A stretch of DNA of 64,000 nucleotides from Candidatus Rokuibacteriota bacterium (GTDB lineage: Bacteria > Methylomirabilota > Methylomirabilia > Rokubacteriales > CSP1-6), in contig VGLJ01000011.1 in the NCBI GenBank assembly GCA_016866775.1, positions 1 to 64,000 of the forward strand, given 5' to 3'. A model generated the notes under the pieces. It was not told the DNA's origin, ran no database searches, and was given only the letters and a program-made list of their open reading frames with translations. Both the position numbers and the translations under genes were made by a program. The number at the start of each line of letters is the position of its first letter. Positions within the stretch are counted from its first letter, which is position 1. Shown one piece after another: positions 9,451 to 56,959 of the stretch.

Positions 9451-10470
9451 GTGGCGCACGTCCAGACCGTGCTCGGCCTGATCGCCCCCGAGGCGCTCGG
9501 GCCGACACTGATGCACGAGCACCTGCTGGTCGACATCCGTCCGCCGTCGAAGCGGGCGCCCGCCGACCTCGGACCCGAGCTTCGCCTCGACACGATCTGG
9601 GCGATCAACTACGGCACCCTGCCCGCCGCGCGGAACTATCTCCTCGACGACGCCGAGATCGCGACCGACGAAGTGCGACGGATGCTCGCGGCGGGTGGCC
9701 GCTCGATCGTCGAGCTGTCGTCGGGGGGCCTCGGTCCGCAGCCGGACGCGCTGGTGAAGATCGCGCGCGCGACGGGCGCGCACATCGTGATGGGCTGCGG
9801 CCACTACGTCGACGAGTATCAGCCGGCGGCGAACCGCGACCGCGGCGTCGACGACTTCGCGCGCGACATGATCACCGCCGCGAAGGACGGCGCGTGGGGC
9901 ACCGGCGTGCGCGCGGGGATCATCGGCGAGATCGGCTGCCAGGCGCCGTGGACGGAGCTCGAGCGGCGCGTGATGCGCGGCGCGCTGATCGCGCAGCGGG
10001 AGACCGGGCTCGCGGTGAACGTGCACCCGGGGCGTCATCCCGACCAGCCGCAGGAGGTCGCGGACTTCCTCCGCGCGCACGGGGGCACGATCGAGCGCAC
10101 GGTCATCAGCCACATCGACCGCACGATCTTCGATACCGAGCGAATGCTGCGCCTCGCCGACACCGGCTGCGTGCTCGAGTTCGATCTGTTCGGTCAGGAG
10201 AGCTCGTACTACCGGCTCGCGGACATCGACATGCCGAACGACGCCGTGCGCCTGCGCGCGATCCGCGCGCTCATCGCGCGCGGCCACCTCGCGCGCGTGG
10301 TGATCGCGCACGACATCTGCTACCGGACACGCCTCGTGGCCTTCGGCGGCCACGGGTACGGGCACATCTTCGCGAACGTGGTGCCGATGATGCGGCGGCG
10401 CGGATTCTCCGACGCCGAGATCCACGCGATCCTCGTCGACAACCCGCGGCGTCTCCTCACCGTCCGGTGA
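9451..10470 (+). CDS. Phosphotriesterase-family metal-dependent hydrolase
   Basis: A 339-residue amidohydrolase-fold enzyme of the phosphotriesterase family. The metal ligands are readable: HEH in LMHEHLLVD, Glu in IIGEIGC, His in VNVHPG, His in ISHIDRT and Asp in IAHDICYRT. Members hydrolyse lactones, organophosphates or similar esters. The presumed start is GTG at 9451, three bases after the LLM stop. The stop overlaps the next gene as GTGA. In context it probably opens a lactone or ester intermediate before CoA activation by the downstream ligase. Confidence 0.88.
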   Translation: MAHVQTVLGLIAPEALGPTLMHEHLLVDIRPPSKRAPADLGPELRLDTIWAINYGTLPAARNYLLDDAEIATDEVRRMLAAGGRSIVELSSGGLGPQPDALVKIARATGAHIVMGCGHYVDEYQPAANRDRGVDDFARDMITAAKDGAWGTGVRAGIIGEIGCQAPWTELERRVMRGALIAQRETGLAVNVHPGRHPDQPQEVADFLRAHGGTIERTVISHIDRTIFDTERMLRLADTGCVLEFDLFGQESSYYRLADIDMPNDAVRLRAIRALIARGHLARVVIAHDICYRTRLVAFGGHGYGHIFANVVPMMRRRGFSDAEIHAILVDNPRRLLTVR

Positions 10471-12107
10471 GCGCGCGGCCGTCGTACGACGAGGCCGTGG
10501 CGCGCTTCGTGTGGCGCGAGAGCCTCGACGCCCTCGGGTGGACGGCCGACGGCGACGTCAATCTCTGCGACACGATCGTCGGCCGCCACGCGCGGTCGGG
10601 CCGCATCGCGCTCCGCTGGTTCGGCAAGGCGGGCGCGCCCGGCACGGCGGGTGACGGGCGCACGCTCACGTTCGACGAGCTCGCGCGGCTCGCGAGCCGC
10701 GTCGCCGGGTTCCTCGCGAGCGCCGGCGTGACGAAGGGCGACCGCGTAGCGGGCTACCTGCCGCGCGTCCCGGAAACCATCGCGATCATGCTCGGCGCGT
10801 GGAAGATCGGCGCCATCTACGTGCCGATCTTCACGGGCTTCGGTCCCGACGCGATCGCGTTCCGTGTCGCTCACAGCGGCGCGCGGATCCTGTTCACACA
10901 CGCCGACTATCGCGACCGCGTGCCATCGCTGTCGGATGACACGCGGATCATTACGATCGATTCGGCAGTCGCGGAGGGCCGGGATGCATTCCCGGCCCGG
11001 AGCGAGGGGGGCGTGGGGGGTGCGTCTCGCACCCCCCAAGTACATCGTCACGATCCCGCGGTGCTGCTGTACACCTCGGGATCCACCGGGCCGCCGAAAG
11101 GCGTGAAGATCGCCACGAACTTTCCGCTCGCCGTTCATCCGTGGATCACGCTCGGCGTCGATCTGCGGCCGGATGACGTCTTCTGGCCCACCGGCGATCC
11201 GGGCTGGGGCTACGGCCTGATCTGCTACATGACCGCGCTCGCGCTCGGCGTCGCCGTCGTCAGCCACGAGGCGACGCCGACGGCGGAGGCCGCGCTGAAG
11301 CGGATCAGCGCGCTCGGCGTGACGAACCTCGCGACGACCCCGACGCTGCTGCGCGGGATCATGGCCCTCGGCGAGGCGGAGGTGCGCGCGCATCCCGTGC
11401 GCGTGCGGTGCGCGAGCAGCTGCGGCGAGCCGCTGAACGCGGAGGTCGTGGGCTTCTTCCAGAAGCTCTGGGGCGTGACCGTGATGGACCACTACGGCTC
11501 CAGCGAGTTCGGGCTGCCGATCGGCAACCTCGCCGCCGCGGACATGGCGGTGAAGCCGGGCTCGATGGGCCGCCCGATGCCGGGCGCGCGCGTCTCCATC
11601 GTCGACGACGACGGCATGGAGCTTCCCGCGGACACCGTGGGGCACATCGCCCTCGCGCCGAGCGAGACCGGCTACTACTCGCTCGGGTACTGGAGCGACG
11701 AGACGCGCACGGGGGAGCTGTTCCGTCGCGGCTGGATGACCGTCGGCGATCTCGGCCGGCGCGACGGGGACGGCTACTTCTGGTTCGAAGGCCGCGCGGA
11801 CGACGTGATCAAGAGCGCGGGCTACCGCATCGGCCCGTTCGAAGTGGAGAGCGCGATCCTCGAGCACCCGGCGGTCGCCGAAGCGGCCGTCGTCGGCAAG
11901 CCGGACGCGCTGCGCGGACACATCGTGAAGGCGTTCGTCGTCCTGCGCCCCGGTGCTGCAACGACGCCGTCGCTCGCGGATGAGATCGTCGAGGTCGTGA
12001 AGACGCGTCTCGGCCGCCCGCAGGCCCCGCGCGAGGTCGAGTTCGTGCGCGAGCTTCCGAAGACGGAGACCGGCAAGATCCAGCGGTTCGTGCTGCGGCG
12101 GCGCTGA
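10467..12107 (+). CDS. AMP-forming acyl-CoA synthetase / ligase
   Basis: A 546-residue ANL-superfamily enzyme that activates a carboxylate to its CoA thioester via an acyl-adenylate. Motifs: phosphate loop YTSGSTGPPKGVK (about residue 203), YGSSEFG (about 343), the hinge-region GRADDVIKSAGYRIGP, and the C-terminal catalytic Lys in PKTETGKIQR. It begins at a GTG overlapping the previous stop. Residues about 167-193, just before the phosphate loop, are encoded by a G-rich palindromic repeat that sits in frame (see 10964-11040) and are absent from the usual family layout as far as I recall it. The acid substrate is unknown; the operon suggests a short or aromatic acid derived from the TRAP cargo. 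Confidence 0.88.
   Translation: MSARPSYDEAVARFVWRESLDALGWTADGDVNLCDTIVGRHARSGRIALRWFGKAGAPGTAGDGRTLTFDELARLASRVAGFLASAGVTKGDRVAGYLPRVPETIAIMLGAWKIGAIYVPIFTGFGPDAIAFRVAHSGARILFTHADYRDRVPSLSDDTRIITIDSAVAEGRDAFPARSEGGVGGASRTPQVHRHDPAVLLYTSGSTGPPKGVKIATNFPLAVHPWITLGVDLRPDDVFWPTGDPGWGYGLICYMTALALGVAVVSHEATPTAEAALKRISALGVTNLATTPTLLRGIMALGEAEVRAHPVRVRCASSCGEPLNAEVVGFFQKLWGVTVMDHYGSSEFGLPIGNLAAADMAVKPGSMGRPMPGARVSIVDDDGMELPADTVGHIALAPSETGYYSLGYWSDETRTGELFRRGWMTVGDLGRRDGDGYFWFEGRADDVIKSAGYRIGPFEVESAILEHPAVAEAAVVGKPDALRGHIVKAFVVLRPGAATTPSLADEIVEVVKTRLGRPQAPREVEFVRELPKTETGKIQRFVLRRR
10964..11040 (+). repeat. G-rich palindromic element, copy D (in frame inside the acyl-CoA synthetase)
   Basis: About 77 bases starting GGCAGTCGCGGA, then a hairpin GGGCCGGGA-TGCA-TTCCCGGCCC, the bridge GGAGCGAGGGGGGCGT, and a second hairpin GGGGGGTGCG-TCT-CGCACCCCCC. 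The same order is found in copies A, B and C between genes. Here it is open in the gene's frame and encodes an AVAEGRDAFPARSEGG-type insert. Orientation is sense relative to the gene, unlike copies A-C, which are antisense to their neighbouring gene. Confidence 0.85.
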
Positions 12108-12929: not shown

Positions 12930-12955
12930 GCCGGTCAGGGTAGCACGGGCGCCTC

Positions 12956-13034
12956 GGCACTCGCGGAGCGCGGCGGCTTTGCCGTCGCGCGGAGCGTGGA
13001 GGGCTTGGGGGGCGCACCTAGCGCCCCCCATCTC
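12956..13034 (+). repeat. G-rich palindromic element, copy B
   Basis: Begins GGCACTCGCGGA, then hairpin GCGCGGCGGC-TTT-GCCGTCGCGC, the bridge GGAGCGTGGAGGGCTT and a second hairpin GGGGGGCGCACCTAGCGCCCCCC ending ATCTC. It aligns throughout with copy A at 38243. It lies between the LLM gene and the 135-aa gene, both leftward, and supplies the LLM stop codon (13018-13020) inside its loop. Confidence 0.85.
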
Positions 13035-13896
13035 CAAAAGATCTGATGACGTCCCTGCCGTAGCGGAGGACGTCGTCCGGCGTCTTCACCTGCGCGGGCA
13101 GGCCCGCGCCCGAGCTGATGGGAACGGCCACGCGCGCGATCCCGCGCTTCGCCAGCGCCTCGATCTCCTTCACCTCGGTCGGCGCGGACACCGTGACCTC
13201 GATCGACGCGGGATCGCGCCCGGCCTCCTCCGCCGCCCGCCGCATCTCGTCGAACAGCTCCTGGGATGCGCCGCGCGCGGGGAAGTAGCCGTCGCCGAGA
13301 CGTCCGGCGCGGCGCGCCGCCGCCTTCGTGTCGCCGCCCACGATGATCGGGATCGGCGCCGCGGGCAACGGGCGGCAGAAGACGTCGTCGAAATTCACGA
13401 ACCGGCCGTGGACGCTCGCGCGCTCCTGCGTCCACAGCGTGCGCATCGCCGCGACGTACTCGTCCGTGCGCGGCCCGCGATCCTCGAACGGCACGCCGAG
13501 CGCCGCGAACTCCTCGGCGAGCCAGCCGACGCCGATCCCGAGCAGCGCCCGGCGGCCGCCCGCGAGGTGATCGAGCGTCGCAATCGCCTTCGCGGTGACG
13601 ACGGGATTGCGCTGCGGCAGGATCAGGATCGCCGTGCCCAGCTTGAGCGTCCGCGTCGCGGACGCGATGTACGCGAGCCAGATCAGCGGATCCGGGATCG
13701 GAAAGTCCTCGAGGCCGGATCCCATCTTCCCCGTCGGCGAGTACGGATACCGCGACTGGTAGGCGTGCGGCACCACGACGTGCTCGACCGTCCAGATCGA
13801 CTCGAAGCCCGCCGCCTCGGCCGCCTGCGCGAGCTCGACGGCGGCGGGACCGTTCGCGAAGCGGCCGAGGCTCGCGTACCGGAGCCCGAACTTCAC
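13018..13896 (-). CDS. LLM-class flavin/F420-dependent oxidoreductase
   Basis: A 292-residue luciferase-like TIM-barrel enzyme of the F420-dependent-type subgroup. Readable segments are MKFGLRYASLGRF, SIWTVEHVVVPHAYQSRYPY near residue 38, LKLGTAILILPQRNP, and RALLGIGVGWLAEEFAALG. It starts at a GTG overlapping the amidohydrolase stop (GTGA), so the two are co-translated. The last five residues (GDGGR) and the stop codon fall within repeat element B, so the natural C-terminus may have been altered by the element. Substrate unknown. Confidence 0.85.
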   Translation of the reverse strand: MKFGLRYASLGRFANGPAAVELAQAAEAAGFESIWTVEHVVVPHAYQSRYPYSPTGKMGSGLEDFPIPDPLIWLAYIASATRTLKLGTAILILPQRNPVVTAKAIATLDHLAGGRRALLGIGVGWLAEEFAALGVPFEDRGPRTDEYVAAMRTLWTQERASVHGRFVNFDDVFCRPLPAAPIPIIVGGDTKAAARRAGRLGDGYFPARGASQELFDEMRRAAEEAGRDPASIEVTVSAPTEVKEIEALAKRGIARVAVPISSGAGLPAQVKTPDDVLRYGRDVIRSFGDGGR

Positions 13897-19146: not shown

Positions 19147-20109
19147 ATGCGCGAGCGACAGGAAGGCATCGCGTTCCTGGCCACGGTCGTCGTCGCCTGG
19201 GGCCTCACGTGGCCCGTGAACAAGCTCGTGCTCGCGGCCGTGCCGCCGCTGTGGGCGGTGACGCTGCGGTCGATGATCGCCGCGGTCGTGCTCTTCGCGC
19301 TCGCGCTCGCCGTCGGCCGGCTGATCATTCCGCCGCGCGCGGACGTGCCGGTGCTGCTGAGCATCACGCTGCTGCACATGGTCGGCTTCACGGTGCTGAC
19401 GAGCTTCGGCCTCGCGGTCGTGCCGGCGGGCCGCTCGGTGGTCCTCGCCTACACGACCCCGCTGTGGGTCACACCGGGCGCGCGCCTCTTTCTCGGTGAG
19501 CCGCTCACCGCGCGCCGCGCGGTCGGCGTGCTCATCGGTCTCGCCGGCCTGGCGGTTTTGTTCAACCCGTTCGCGTTCGACTGGACGAGCCGCGAGGCGG
19601 TCGTCGGCAACGCCGCGATCCTGGGCGGTGCGTTCCTGTGGGCCGGCAGCATCATCCACATCCGCGGCCATCGCTGGCGCGCGACGCCGTTCCAGCTCCT
19701 GCCGTGGGAATTGCTGCTCGCGACGGTGATCCTGCTGCCGCTGTCGCTCACGCTCGAGGGCGCGCCGGCGTGGGCGTGGACGCCGGCGTTGATCGCGTTG
19801 CTCGCGTACGGGGGAATTCCCGGGACGGGACTTCCCTACTGGGCGATCGCGATGGCGACGCGGCGTCTGCCCGCGGTGACGATCTCGCTCGGCCTCCTCG
19901 CGACGCCGGCGTTCAGCGTGGTCGTCGCCACGCTGTGGCTGGGCGAGCCGCTCACGGCGTCGCTGGTGATCGCGATCGTGCTGATCCTCGGTGGAATTTG
20001 TTGGGACATGGGGGGCTCCGGGCGCCCCCCAAGCCCCCCACGCTCCGGGCCCGGAATGAATCCGGGCCCTCCGCGAGTGCCCTCTAGCCCCCGGGCTCGA
20101 GCCGGATGA
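19147..20109 (+). CDS. DMT-superfamily transporter, EamA type
   Basis: A 320-residue inner-membrane protein with ten predicted helices in two EamA repeats; the signatures WGLTWPVNKLVLAAVPP near the start and VVVATLWLGEPLTAS in the second repeat are typical. Members export amino acids or other metabolites. The membrane part ends near residue 287 (LILGGICWD). The remaining tail of about 30 residues, rich in Gly, Pro, Arg and Ser, is encoded by repeat element C, so the original C-terminus has probably been replaced. It overlaps the convergent sugar dehydrogenase by 26 bases. Confidence 0.86.
   Translation: MRERQEGIAFLATVVVAWGLTWPVNKLVLAAVPPLWAVTLRSMIAAVVLFALALAVGRLIIPPRADVPVLLSITLLHMVGFTVLTSFGLAVVPAGRSVVLAYTTPLWVTPGARLFLGEPLTARRAVGVLIGLAGLAVLFNPFAFDWTSREAVVGNAAILGGAFLWAGSIIHIRGHRWRATPFQLLPWELLLATVILLPLSLTLEGAPAWAWTPALIALLAYGGIPGTGLPYWAIAMATRRLPAVTISLGLLATPAFSVVVATLWLGEPLTASLVIAIVLILGGICWDMGGSGRPPSPPRSGPGMNPGPPRVPSSPRARAG
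20005..20081 (-). repeat. G-rich palindromic element, copy C
   Basis: On the minus strand it reads GGCACTCGCGGA, hairpin GGGCCCGGA-TTCA-TTCCGGGCCC, bridge GGAGCGTGGGGGGCTT, then the second hairpin GGGGGGCGCCCGGAGCCCCCC and ATGTC. It forms the 3' end of the EamA gene and abuts the stop of the convergent dehydrogenase gene. Confidence 0.85.
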
Positions 20110-38229: not shown

Positions 38230-38242
38230 GTGCGGATGTGCC

Positions 38243-38323
38243 GGCACTCGCGGAGGGCGACGGCTTCGCCGGCGCCCGGAGCGCGGGGGGCTTGGGGGGC
38301 CGCTGGAGGCGGCCCCCCATCTC
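38243..38323 (+). repeat. G-rich palindromic element, copy A
   Basis: Most complete copy. Begins GGCACTCGCGGA, then hairpin 1 (GGGCGACGGC-TTC-GCCGGCGCCC, imperfect), bridge GGAGCGCGGGGGGCTT, hairpin 2 (GGGGGGCCGC-TGGAG-GCGGCCCCCC) and ATCTC. It lies between an SDR gene and the antitoxin gene, both leftward. The SDR stop codon (38322-38324) overlaps its last bases. Confidence 0.87.
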
Positions 38324-39107
38324 AAGCAGCCGTCACCCCGCCGTCGACGGGCAGCGCGGCGCCGGTGATGAACGACGCCTCGTCGGAGAGCAGGAACAGC
38401 GCGGCGTTCGCGATCTCCTCCGGCTTGCCGGTGCGCTTGAGCGGCACGGAGTTCGCGGCGCGCTTGGCGACGAGCTCCTCCGGGTCCATGCCGGCCGTGG
38501 ACTTCTGATCGGGACGCGCGACGAACACGCGCAGCATCGGCGTGTCGATCGGGCCGGGGCAGACCGCGTTCACGCGGATGTTCTCGGGCGCGAGCCGCAG
38601 CGCGAGGCTCTTCACGAAGCCGACCACGCCGAACTTGCACATCGAGTAGACCGGGCTGAAGCCGGAGCCGACGAGCCCGGACGTGGACGCGGTGAACACC
38701 ATGCTGCCGCCGCCTCGGCGCCGCATCTCGGGAATCGCCGCCTCGGTCGTCACGAGCACCGTGCGGAGGTTGAGATCGACCGCGAGATCGAACGTGCTCA
38801 TGTCGATGCCTTCGACGGCGGCGGGCCCGGGATGCCCCACGTGGTTCCACACGAAGTCGAGCCCCTTGAAGCGATTGACGGTGTCCCAGACGATCCGGCG
38901 CGAGTCCTCGTCCTTCGTCAGATCGGCTGTGAGGCCGAGCGCCGTGCCACCCGCCGCCGTGATCTCGTCGACGACGCGCTTCACGCTCGTCGCGTCGATG
39001 TCGACGACGGCGACCTGCGCGCCCTCGCGCGCGAAGCGCAGCGCACCGGCACGGCCCATGCCCGACCCCGCCGCGGTGACGATGCCGATCTTGTTCGCCA
39101 AGCGCAT
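38322..39107 (-). CDS. Short-chain dehydrogenase/reductase (classical SDR)
   Basis: A 261-residue SDR: TAAGSGMGRAGA nucleotide motif near residue 11, VVDIDA after beta2 (NAD-type), catalytic Ser in TASTSGLVG, Tyr-x3-Lys in YSMCKFGVVGF, and SFITGAALPVDGG at the end. The usual NNAG is WNHVG, an uncommon variant. The ATG at 39107 follows directly after repeat element F, which supplies the upstream G-rich sequence; the longer frame from 39155 would be encoded by the repeat and is rejected. It probably shares a transcript with the binding protein upstream. Confidence 0.89.
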   Translation of the reverse strand: MRLANKIGIVTAAGSGMGRAGALRFAREGAQVAVVDIDATSVKRVVDEITAAGGTALGLTADLTKDEDSRRIVWDTVNRFKGLDFVWNHVGHPGPAAVEGIDMSTFDLAVDLNLRTVLVTTEAAIPEMRRRGGGSMVFTASTSGLVGSGFSPVYSMCKFGVVGFVKSLALRLAPENIRVNAVCPGPIDTPMLRVFVARPDQKSTAGMDPEELVAKRAANSVPLKRTGKPEEIANAALFLLSDEASFITGAALPVDGGVTAA

Positions 39108-49111: not shown

Positions 49112-50424
49112 GCCGACGAAAAGACCGTGGGCTTCGCGACCTCCGTCCGGAGCGCCTGCAGCGCCTGCTCGACGATGCGCCGTCGCAACGCCTTTTCGTC
49201 GTCGGGCGACAGCTCCGCATTCCCGAGCGGGTGGATGATGCCCGCGGCGGGCACGATGCGGTTCGCGCCGACCATGACCGCGACCGGCGTCATCGTCGAC
49301 ACCTGCACCGTCGGCAGGCCCGCACGCTCGAGCTCTCGCGCGATCGCTGCGCCGCAGCGAGTGCTCGTCCCTCAGGTGGACGTGAGGATCACGGCGTCGA
49401 CGCCCGCCGCGCGCAGCTTCTCGGCGATCTCGGCGCCCATGCGAGCACTCTGCGCCAGCGTGGTGGCGACGCCGACCGTCGAATACACGGTCTCGTGCAG
49501 CTTGCCGATCGCGCCGCGCTGCTCGAGCTCGCGCGCGACGTCGACCGGCACGAGCCGGTGCGGGTCCTGCTTGACCCACGTCGTGTCGTAGCCGCGATGC
49601 GGGTTCTCGTACTGCGCGGCGTCGAGCGCGTCCTTGCCTTCGATGCTGTACGCGCCGTAGCGCGTCGCGTTCAGCGCCTCGATGCCGTCGGGATTTCCCT
49701 TCGGGACGAGACCGCCGTCGGTGACGAGCGCGATCGTCGCGCCCTCCAGCGTCTTCACCAGCCTCGGCGCCGGCACGCTCGCGAACGACGGGCGCGGCAC
49801 CTCGCTCGCGAACGGCCGGCCGGCGAGCTTGTCGAGCAGCATGGCGGTCGCGCGCTCGGCGGCGGTGGTCTCCGTGACGACGTTGCGGGTCACGCCGCGC
49901 GCGAAGTAGCCCTCGGCGGCCGGCGCGCCGATCTTCTCGCCTCGCGCGAGCTTGAGCCCGAGCGCGACGAGCCGCTGCGCCTCGGGCAGCATCCGCGTGG
50001 CCTCGGCGCCGGTCTGCACGATGTAGACCGACCGGCGATACAGATCCACGCCGGGATTCTCCGCGTGCATGCCGGTGACGGCGGGGACCGTGAGCTGCGC
50101 CTGCACCGCCGCGCAGAGCGCGCCGCACGCCACGCCGTAGCGGCCGGCGAGGAACGCGGGACCGGCGACCACGAGATCGGGCTTCGCGGCGGCCACGAGG
50201 GCCACCATCGCGGCGAGCGCGCGGTCCGACTGCTCGGCGGCGTAGTTGTCGCCGCAGATCACCGTGGCGACCACGGTGCCCGCGTCGCCCAGCGCCTGCT
50301 GCACGGCGCGCGCGGCGCCGACCGCGCCGTCCCGGCTCAGCGGCTCGACCCCGGCCTTCTCCTCGCCGCCGATCTGGCCGAAGAACTGGTTGACGTAGCA
50401 GACGACGCGCAGCCGCTCCGGCAT
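49108..50424 (-). CDS. grdB: Glycine/sarcosine/betaine-reductase-type component B, gamma subunit (GrdB-like, copy 1), selenoprotein
   Basis: A 438-residue protein read through TGA at 49372-49374. It closely follows GrdB along its length: RVVCYVNQFFGQIGGEEKAG at the start, VICGDNY, VAGPAFLAGRYG, ALVTDGGLVPKGNPD, then DAVILTST-Sec351-GTSTRCG and a C-terminus with MVGANRIVPAAGI and IHPLGN. GrdB's Sec attacks the substrate bound on GrdE and passes the acyl part to GrdA. The motif here is UxxSxxC; copy 2 has UxxCxxC. A 7-bp triloop hairpin lies 11 bases after the UGA. Start and stop overlap grdE-1 and the Sec-DsbA gene (ATGA on both sides). Substrate specificity unknown. Confidence 0.93.
49344..49360 (-). 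promoter_or_regulatory. SECIS-like hairpin after the Sec codon of grdB-1
   Basis: On the minus strand TCGCTGC-GGC-GCAGCGA forms a perfect 7-bp stem with a GGC triloop, beginning 11 bases after UGA, the distance expected for SelB recognition. The coding sequence there (RCGAA) also constrains these bases. Confidence 0.6.
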
Positions 50425-55625: not shown

Positions 55626-56959
55626 CACTTGCGCTCCTGCATGGGATCGAAGAGCGTCGGCCCGGGCACCGCGACCGTGATCGCGGCGAGCGCCGTCCGC
55701 ACGATGTGCATCCCGAACGCGTAGTCCTTCTCGGGGCTCAGTGTCGGATCGCCGCACACGTGCTCGATGCGCGCGCCGCGGATGACCCGGTTGGCGCCGG
55801 TCGTCAGCGCGAAGTTGTAGATGGCGGAGATCATCCCCACCGGAATCCCCACCCGCTCGATCTCTTTCGCGATCGTTGCGCCGCAACGATTGCAGGTCCC
55901 TCAGGTGGCGACGAGCAGCGCGCCGTCGACCCCTCCTTGCTTCAGGTCCGCGGCGATGCTGCGCCCGTGCCCCGCGGAGACCGCGACCGGCGTGCTGACG
56001 CCCGGCAGCGCGTAGATGTGCTCGTGCACCGCGCCGATCGCGCCCTGGCGCTCGAGGTCGCGCAGGAACGACAGCGGCAGGATGTAGTTCGGGTTGCTGT
56101 TCACGAGGTGGTTGAAGTATCCCGCGTGATATGCCTCCCACTCTTTCGGCGAGAGCGATTCCAGCTCCGCGACCGAGTGGCGGTGATACCGCACGGCGTT
56201 CGCCGACACCTGCTTGTCGGGGTTGCCCTTCCGCACGAGCCCGCCGGTGGTGACCATGGCGATGCGCGCGCGCGTGAGGTCGGCGATCGGGGCCGCGGGC
56301 GGCACACGTTCGGGCGCCGAGTACGGCACTTCCGAGCGATACGGCCGGCCGTGCAGCTTGTCGAGGAGCATGTCGAGCGCGCGCTGAAAGCCGGGACGGC
56401 CGCGGTCGTACACGCGGCGCCGTCCTTGCGGCAGATAGCCTTCGACTTCCGCCGGGCCGAGCGTCTCGCGACGGCCGAGACGTTGCGCGAGTGGAGCGAG
56501 CGCGGCAAGCGCCGCCGGCATCGACGTGGTCGACGTGCCGGTCGGCAGGATCGTGATCCCGCGGCGCGCCGCGGACGCGCCGGGGTTCTCCGGATGCATC
56601 GCGGTGACCGCGGCCAGGCCGCGATCCTGCGCGATCCTGCACACCTGCGCGCACGCGAGCCCGTAGCGGCCGGAGCCGAAGGCGGGGCCGGCAACCACGA
56701 CGTCGGGCTTGAGGCGGTCCAGCTCGGTGGCCACGGCGCGAGCGAACTCCTCCGCGCGGTCGTTGGCGAAGTTGTCGCCGCAGACGATCGTGGCCTCGAT
56801 CCGCGCGCCGGCGCCGAGCGCGGTCTCGAGCACCCGCCCCGGGCCGACGGCGCCGGGCGTCACGCTGACGCCGACGTCCGCCTTGTCCTCGCCCCCGACG
56901 CCCCCGAAGAACTGATTGACGTAGTGCACGACGCGGACCGGGCTCTTCATGCGCGCCAT
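55625..56959 (-). CDS. grdB: Glycine/sarcosine/betaine-reductase-type component B, gamma subunit (GrdB-like, copy 2), selenoprotein
   Basis: A 444-residue GrdB-family selenoprotein read through TGA at 55901-55903. It begins RVVHYVNQFFGGVGGEDKAD, followed by IVCGDNFAND, VAGPAFGSGRYGLAC, MVTTGGLVRKGNPDK and YIPLSFLRDL-like middle parts, then GALLVAT-Sec353-GTCNRCGATIAKEIERVGIP. The motif UxxCxxC is intact. Past residue 375 it departs from copy 1 (ALTTGANRVIRGARIEH), so the substrate pocket may differ. A perfect 8-bp triloop hairpin lies 10 bases after the UGA. First gene of the run; ATG at 56959, with MKSPVRV at 56950 as alternative. Confidence 0.93.
55872..55890 (-). promoter_or_regulatory. 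SECIS-like hairpin after the Sec codon of grdB-2
   Basis: On the minus strand ATCGTTGC-GGC-GCAACGAT forms a perfect 8-bp stem with a GGC triloop, starting 10 bases after UGA. It shares loop and spacing with the grdB-1 hairpin although the stem bases differ at paired positions, so base pairing itself looks conserved. Confidence 0.65.

Follow-up and report, generated by a model that had tools for sequence, protein, structure and literature searches.

The window, i.e., the whole 64,000-nt stretch of DNA analysed here, contains on its plus strand the gene of an AMP-forming acyl-CoA synthetase (hereafter the ligase), and within the reading frame of this gene lies one copy, copy D, of a short repeat with two hairpins. 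Three further copies of the repeat are found elsewhere in the window. Copy D is located on contig C11 of the host assembly, a 5.13-Mb MAG of 159 contigs with 97.5% completeness and 1.6% contamination. The features are as follows.

10467..12107 (+), acyl-CoA synthetase (AMP-forming) gene that carries copy D, identified from Pfam, PDB relatives and the coding model
10960..11043 (+), copy D, two-hairpin element within the ligase gene, with its core at 10963-11038, identified by covariance model R1 and BLAST
10976..10998 (+), hairpin 1 of copy D, GGGCCGGGA / TCCCGGCCC, 9 bp, from fold and covariation
11014..11038 (+), hairpin 2 of copy D, GGGGGGTGCG / CGCACCCCCC, from fold and covariation
12952..13035 (+), intergenic copy between two minus-strand genes, 85.1 bits; the right-hand gene ends inside the copy
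20004..20085 (-), copy at the 3' end of a plus-strand gene, 88.4 bits; convergent context according to the gene caller
38239..38324 (+), intergenic copy between two minus-strand genes, 68.9 bits

The ligase frame runs uninterrupted for 546 aa and contains the Pfam domains AMP-binding (6e-69) and AMP-binding_C (6e-26). Its relatives in the PDB include 5u2a, and its nearest named relatives are from Candidatus Rokuibacteriota MAGs, which makes Rokubacteria the presumed lineage of the host. Orthologues L032-L037 align with it from end to end at 61-67% identity, and no orthologue above 67% identity was found. The frame is not a product of chance, because the orthologues align over their full length and the invariant residues of the acyl-CoA synthetase family are retained, with the motifs intact. 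Thus, the intact coding frame described in the original prediction was borne out, and so was its claim that copy D matches the intergenic elements. Over 10960-11043, copy D scores 101.9 bits (E=4.3e-17) against covariance model R1, whose training copies include copy D itself; a BLAST comparison, which is independent of R1, scored 40 copies in the host genome with copy D as the query, the nearest other copy being 95% identical over 84 nt. In copy D, hairpin 1 is flanked by GGA/GGA and then by an outer CGC:GCG stem (10970-10972 with 11002-11004), and the predicted fold has an energy of -55.2 kcal/mol (z -6.0). The copy nearest to copy D appears twice, at C115:51-134 and C59:68-151; because these are the ends of two contigs and have the same flanks, they are probably one locus that was split or duplicated in the assembly.

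The element is an 84-nt unit of two unlike hairpins. In 26 aligned copies, the common layout from 5' to 3' is CGGCACTCGCGGAG, hairpin 1, CGGAGCG, GGGGGGCTTGGGGGG and hairpin 2, which ends in CCCCCCAT. The structure was tested on these 26 copies using a named structure of 23 pairs. Overall, 97.8% of the cells are paired, a count that is biased towards the structure since it was drawn from the same 26 sequences; unaffected by this bias are the changes on both sides of a pair, which occur in 8 of the 23 pairs. Six of these are among the nine pairs of hairpin 1 and two are in hairpin 2, where seven pairs are invariant. The observed covariation score was matched by none of 500 shuffles, and shifting the pairing partners abolishes the signal. 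The edge profile displays a conserved left edge and, beyond the last C run, a conserved A/T-rich segment some 11 nt long; inverted ends are not obvious. Five of the six frames are open in the consensus, which is rich in G+C. No Rfam family matched the element at gathering score, the sole match in the window being SECIS_4, elsewhere in the window, and a known Rfam family was therefore rejected as the identity of the element. The literature searched contained no description of repeats of this kind from Rokubacteria.

At E<=0.01 and with scoring limited to 150 candidates, the covariance model finds at least 148 copies in the host genome. A sample of 395 kb, taken irrespective of copies and for the most part from contigs C1 and C2, contained eight strong matches, each of them one of the 148, and a few weak copies came to light only in the individual loci retrieved. 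These counts are from a draft MAG, in which short repeats may be misassembled.

Genes were called with a home-made caller, whose codon-usage model was trained on sequence from the host genome. By these calls, 93 of the 148 copies are in tandem context, 38 are between convergent and 5 between divergent genes, 10 are inside genes and 2 could not be placed, compared with 285 tandem, 58 divergent and 58 convergent background gaps in 20 unselected stretches. The divergent context is thus rare (5 of the 136 placed intergenic copies). The copies adjoin stop codons closely: for genes on the same strand, the stop codon is a median of 5 nt from the element start, and for genes on the opposite strand, it is a median of 1 nt from the element end. 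Of the reading frames nearby, about 50 terminate inside or past the element, and 22 opposite-strand genes have their stop 52-54 nt within it, on or adjoining a TGA formed by the hairpin 1 loop, although these frame-end figures are approximate because a few overlaps are second, reverse-strand model matches to one copy. A DNA glycosylase and a RecQ helicase (L200 1446-2084 and L250 678-2555) end in element-coded tails (e.g., ...HMGGARRAPHAPRAPGRD*), and the repeat therefore also makes C-terminal extensions.

The ten copies within open frames lie in recognisable conserved proteins, nine of them in the sense of the gene.

Ligase (window): copy D, sense
HtpG: L157, sense
LigD: L201, sense, near a protein end
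Amidohydrolase: L217, sense
LarC: L221, sense
FAD-binding oxidoreductase: L224, sense, near a protein end
GcvT/YgfZ-like protein: L257, sense
Ceramidase-like protein: L259, sense
LpxB: L242, sense
PBP with PASTA domain: L297, antisense, weak (54 bits)

Apart from the ligase, larC and htpG were the genes compared with relatives for empty sites, and both gave them. For larC, 11 relatives do not have 20-27 aa exactly at the element position, and for htpG, the sole close orthologue found (L327, 73% identical) does not have 19 aa. No element was found in the 11 larC genes or in the htpG of L327, and two matches in L339 fall outside larC. In comparison with PDB sequences, HtpG has about 20 residues more than that of E. 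coli, with some native loop residues lost, and LarC has about 24 residues more than its solved relative and comes close to a simple insertion; the alignments of LpxB and LigD with PDB sequences are broken or lengthened in the element region. The original prediction had inferred that the element has moved and can create new protein segments, and these data, i.e., at least 148 copies, copies in frame within genes, and empty sites in the larC and htpG of relatives, agree with it on both counts. Decay of the hairpins in coding copies was not significant (p 0.07-0.4), their predicted stability being about the same, and a preferred reading frame was not supported, with 5 of 9 sense copies showing one phase at both ends, which is too few to count.

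In the ligase, about 26 element-coded residues (SAVAEGRDAFPARSEGGVGGASRTPQ) end shortly before YTSGSTGPPKG. At this place, in the interval from a conserved strand that ends I-[TV]-[IV] to R-[RH]-x-[DE]-P-A-V-L-L-Y-T-S-G-S, the native linker of the orthologues is roughly 25-37 residues long and includes a D-[IVL]-x-F motif. In the ligase, this interval comprises 27 residues, of which the element codes for 26, and D-[IVL]-x-F is not kept in register; relative to the closest orthologue, L032, the net gain of the ligase is about one residue. No orthologue shares the segment, and their differing linkers gave no element match beyond chance, even by the covariance model with its filters off. The outcome that would have refuted the original prediction, orthologues sharing the 25-residue segment, was thus not observed. 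Because orthologues lacking the element possess a native linker that is about as long, copy D stands, as judged by alignment, in place of the native linker relative to orthologues 61-67% identical to the ligase. This contradicts the claim that the element adds about 25 residues, and an insertion that lengthened the ligase is rejected by the orthologue lengths. At orthologue identities of 67% or less, a one-step replacement would look the same as an insertion after which the old linker was lost. In an AlphaFold model built with 23 sequences (mean pLDDT 88.6), residues 165-172 and 176-184 have pLDDT under 50 and lie between strands 158-162 and 195-200, while the remaining fold is confident. The model thus presents the element-coded segment as a disordered loop before the P-loop, and it supports the predicted linker region before the ATP-binding loop.

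Matches at E<=0.001 were found in 32 of the 99 relatives searched (the table rows include the host). All matching relatives belong to the host's own family, and none to other families of the order or class. The copy counts in relatives are lower bounds because the model was built from the host genome. Their copies keep the two-hairpin plan and the invariant G-rich stretch, with changed stem sequences. Tandem arrays of two or three element units occur in some relatives (L172, L174 and L181). One relative of another genus (L171, G035:C95:2676-2759) has a copy at 92.8 bits, with the other copies of this MAG at about 54 bits or less; this copy may be a recent transfer or contamination of the MAG.

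Rickettsia provides the best-known cases of in-frame palindromic repeats, and the original prediction drew a parallel with the Rickettsia palindromic elements (RPEs). Many RPEs lie in frame inside Rickettsia genes and add tens of residues (PMC10969869), and the element resembles them in being a dispersed palindromic repeat that is found both between genes and in frame in unrelated genes. RPE-4 and RPE-6 are counted as intragenic CGTC repeats (PMC3733652). Unlike RPEs, the Rokubacterial element has another length and sequence (the direct comparison being by the CGTC tag alone), most of its copies are outside genes, copy D replaced a linker, and the host is of a free-living uncultured lineage far from Rickettsia. 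The parallel thus holds for behaviour, with in-frame copies in 10 genes, but, as judged by the CGTC end tag, which is not enriched, it does not extend to membership by descent.

A second comparison is with the tagged REPs of Di Nocera and colleagues (2013), which lie near gene 3' ends, mostly between unidirectional or convergent genes, with some supplying stop codons and some inside ORFs (PMC3733652). The element shares with these GTAG/CGTC REPs its place next to gene 3' ends, its rarity between divergent genes, the supply of stops and its presence inside ORFs, but differs from them in being an 84-nt unit of two unlike hairpins, in having no end tags and in the absence of a RAYT (Y1). In 26-nt end windows of the 148 copies, GTAG/CTAC and CGTC/GACG are at or below genomic background at both ends, and membership of the tagged REPs was rejected on this ground. 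No Y1 (IS200/IS605-type) transposase, PF01797, was found in the host genome (a 97.5% complete MAG), and only a few genomes of the host's family carry PF01797, with no association with the element; mobilisation of the RAYT/IS200 type was therefore rejected. Seven pairs of closely spaced copies were also read by eye, and between them lie genes for DNA glycosylase, RecQ, MurG, an LpxI-like protein and others, but no transposase. Prokaryotic MITEs (ERIC and similar), as summarised in PMC10969869 citing Delihas 2007, are short non-coding repeats for which in-frame fusions are possible. The element is likewise a short repeat able to form in-frame fusions, whereas it has no visible overall terminal inverted repeat and no identified parent insertion sequence. 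With neither tags nor REP transposase found, and with REP-like placement and RPE-like in-frame copies, the element is therefore best classed as a new REP-like family with RPE-like behaviour, a member of neither.

Our assessment, with a probability of about 85%, is that copy D is a member of this dispersed, REP-like two-hairpin Rokubacterial family, and that it landed in frame and replaced a disordered linker. A native Gly/Arg-rich linker that resembles the repeat by accident or common ancestry is hardly credible: linkers of comparable length do occur at the same place in the orthologues, but they have no credible model match and share the D-[IVL]-x-F motif that is not in register in the ligase, and at 61-67% identity there is no element-free orthologue with the same segment. 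The 95% DNA identity to another copy over 84 nt and the model match (E=4e-17) with both hairpins intact argue against it as well, so that accidental similarity is rejected by BLAST, the covariance model and the element-free orthologues together. Very unlikely, too, is an artefact in which short-read assembly fused two genes, or put in a repeat copy, at the element. Such errors are conceivable in a MAG of 159 contigs with some copies at contig ends, where C115 and C59 resemble two ends of one locus, but the two halves of the ligase align collinearly, in a single frame, with the same orthologues, at full length and 61-67% identity, and at least nine other genes have in-frame copies; chimeric joins would rarely preserve gene identity and frame.

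Other alternatives concern what the element does and how it spreads. It may primarily serve at mRNA 3' ends as a functional RNA module (a terminator, 3' stabiliser or processing signal), its dispersal being a by-product and the in-gene copies rare mis-placements. We consider this quite conceivable, if somewhat short of even odds, and it concerns function and is compatible with the above explanation of copy D. It is consistent with the covarying stems, with the copies adjoining stop codons and being rare between divergent genes, and with the two-hairpin architecture and invariant G-rich stretch kept in relatives despite the changed stems, but the element occupies only about 150 sites in a 5.1-Mb genome and contains no U-tract of the intrinsic-terminator kind. 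Moreover, the hairpins of in-gene copies have about the same predicted stability, and structure alone therefore cannot tell functional copies from passive ones. That the copies spread through recombination, homologous or by microhomology (gene conversion or template switching), with a stretch of similar length overwritten and no transposase involved, is rather unlikely. It would fit the replacement of a ligase linker of nearly equal length, the loss of some native loop residues in HtpG and the absence of a Y1 transposase from the host genome, but LarC carries nearly a simple insertion, and the apparent replacement in the ligase could be a later loss of a redundant native linker.

Under the preferred reading of copy D as a family member that landed in frame, the element would multiply by non-autonomous transposition or recombination-mediated copying, and its copies would survive mainly just beside stop codons, where they may form strong hairpins in mRNA 3' ends, as their positions suggest. 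Some in-gene copies would have kept the frame because the consensus is G+C-rich and open in most frames, and in the cell these would be translated as loops rich in Gly, Ala, Arg and Ser. In the ligase, copy D would have taken over from a linker ahead of the P-loop that was variable and disordered, with little change to either length or fold; the enzyme presumably remains active, and any benefit of the segment is conjectural. Decidedly speculative is the broader proposal of a hitherto undescribed class of repeats, in a single Rokubacterial family, that multiplies without a REP transposase, can overwrite variable linkers in coding sequence with segments of near-equal length, supplies interchangeable linkers and C-terminal tails, and keeps RNA structure at gene ends.

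RPE-like behaviour is now seen in a distant uncultured lineage, with copies in housekeeping genes such as htpG, larC, lpxB and ligD and with empty sites in relatives, and the family offers a free-living test case for repeats turning into protein segments. The ligase copy indicates that a repeat can substitute for a native linker, beyond merely lengthening a protein, and the element also flags conserved two-hairpin structures of putative function at gene ends.

Elsewhere in the window, the Rfam SECIS_4 match (55863-55900 (-), 42.3 bits) lies immediately 3' to a TGA codon located in frame within a gene on the minus strand, in the context ...LLVATUGTCNRCGATIAKEIERVG..., with a similar stretch at 49312-49404. 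This gene likely codes for a selenoprotein resembling selenoprotein B of glycine/betaine-type reductases.
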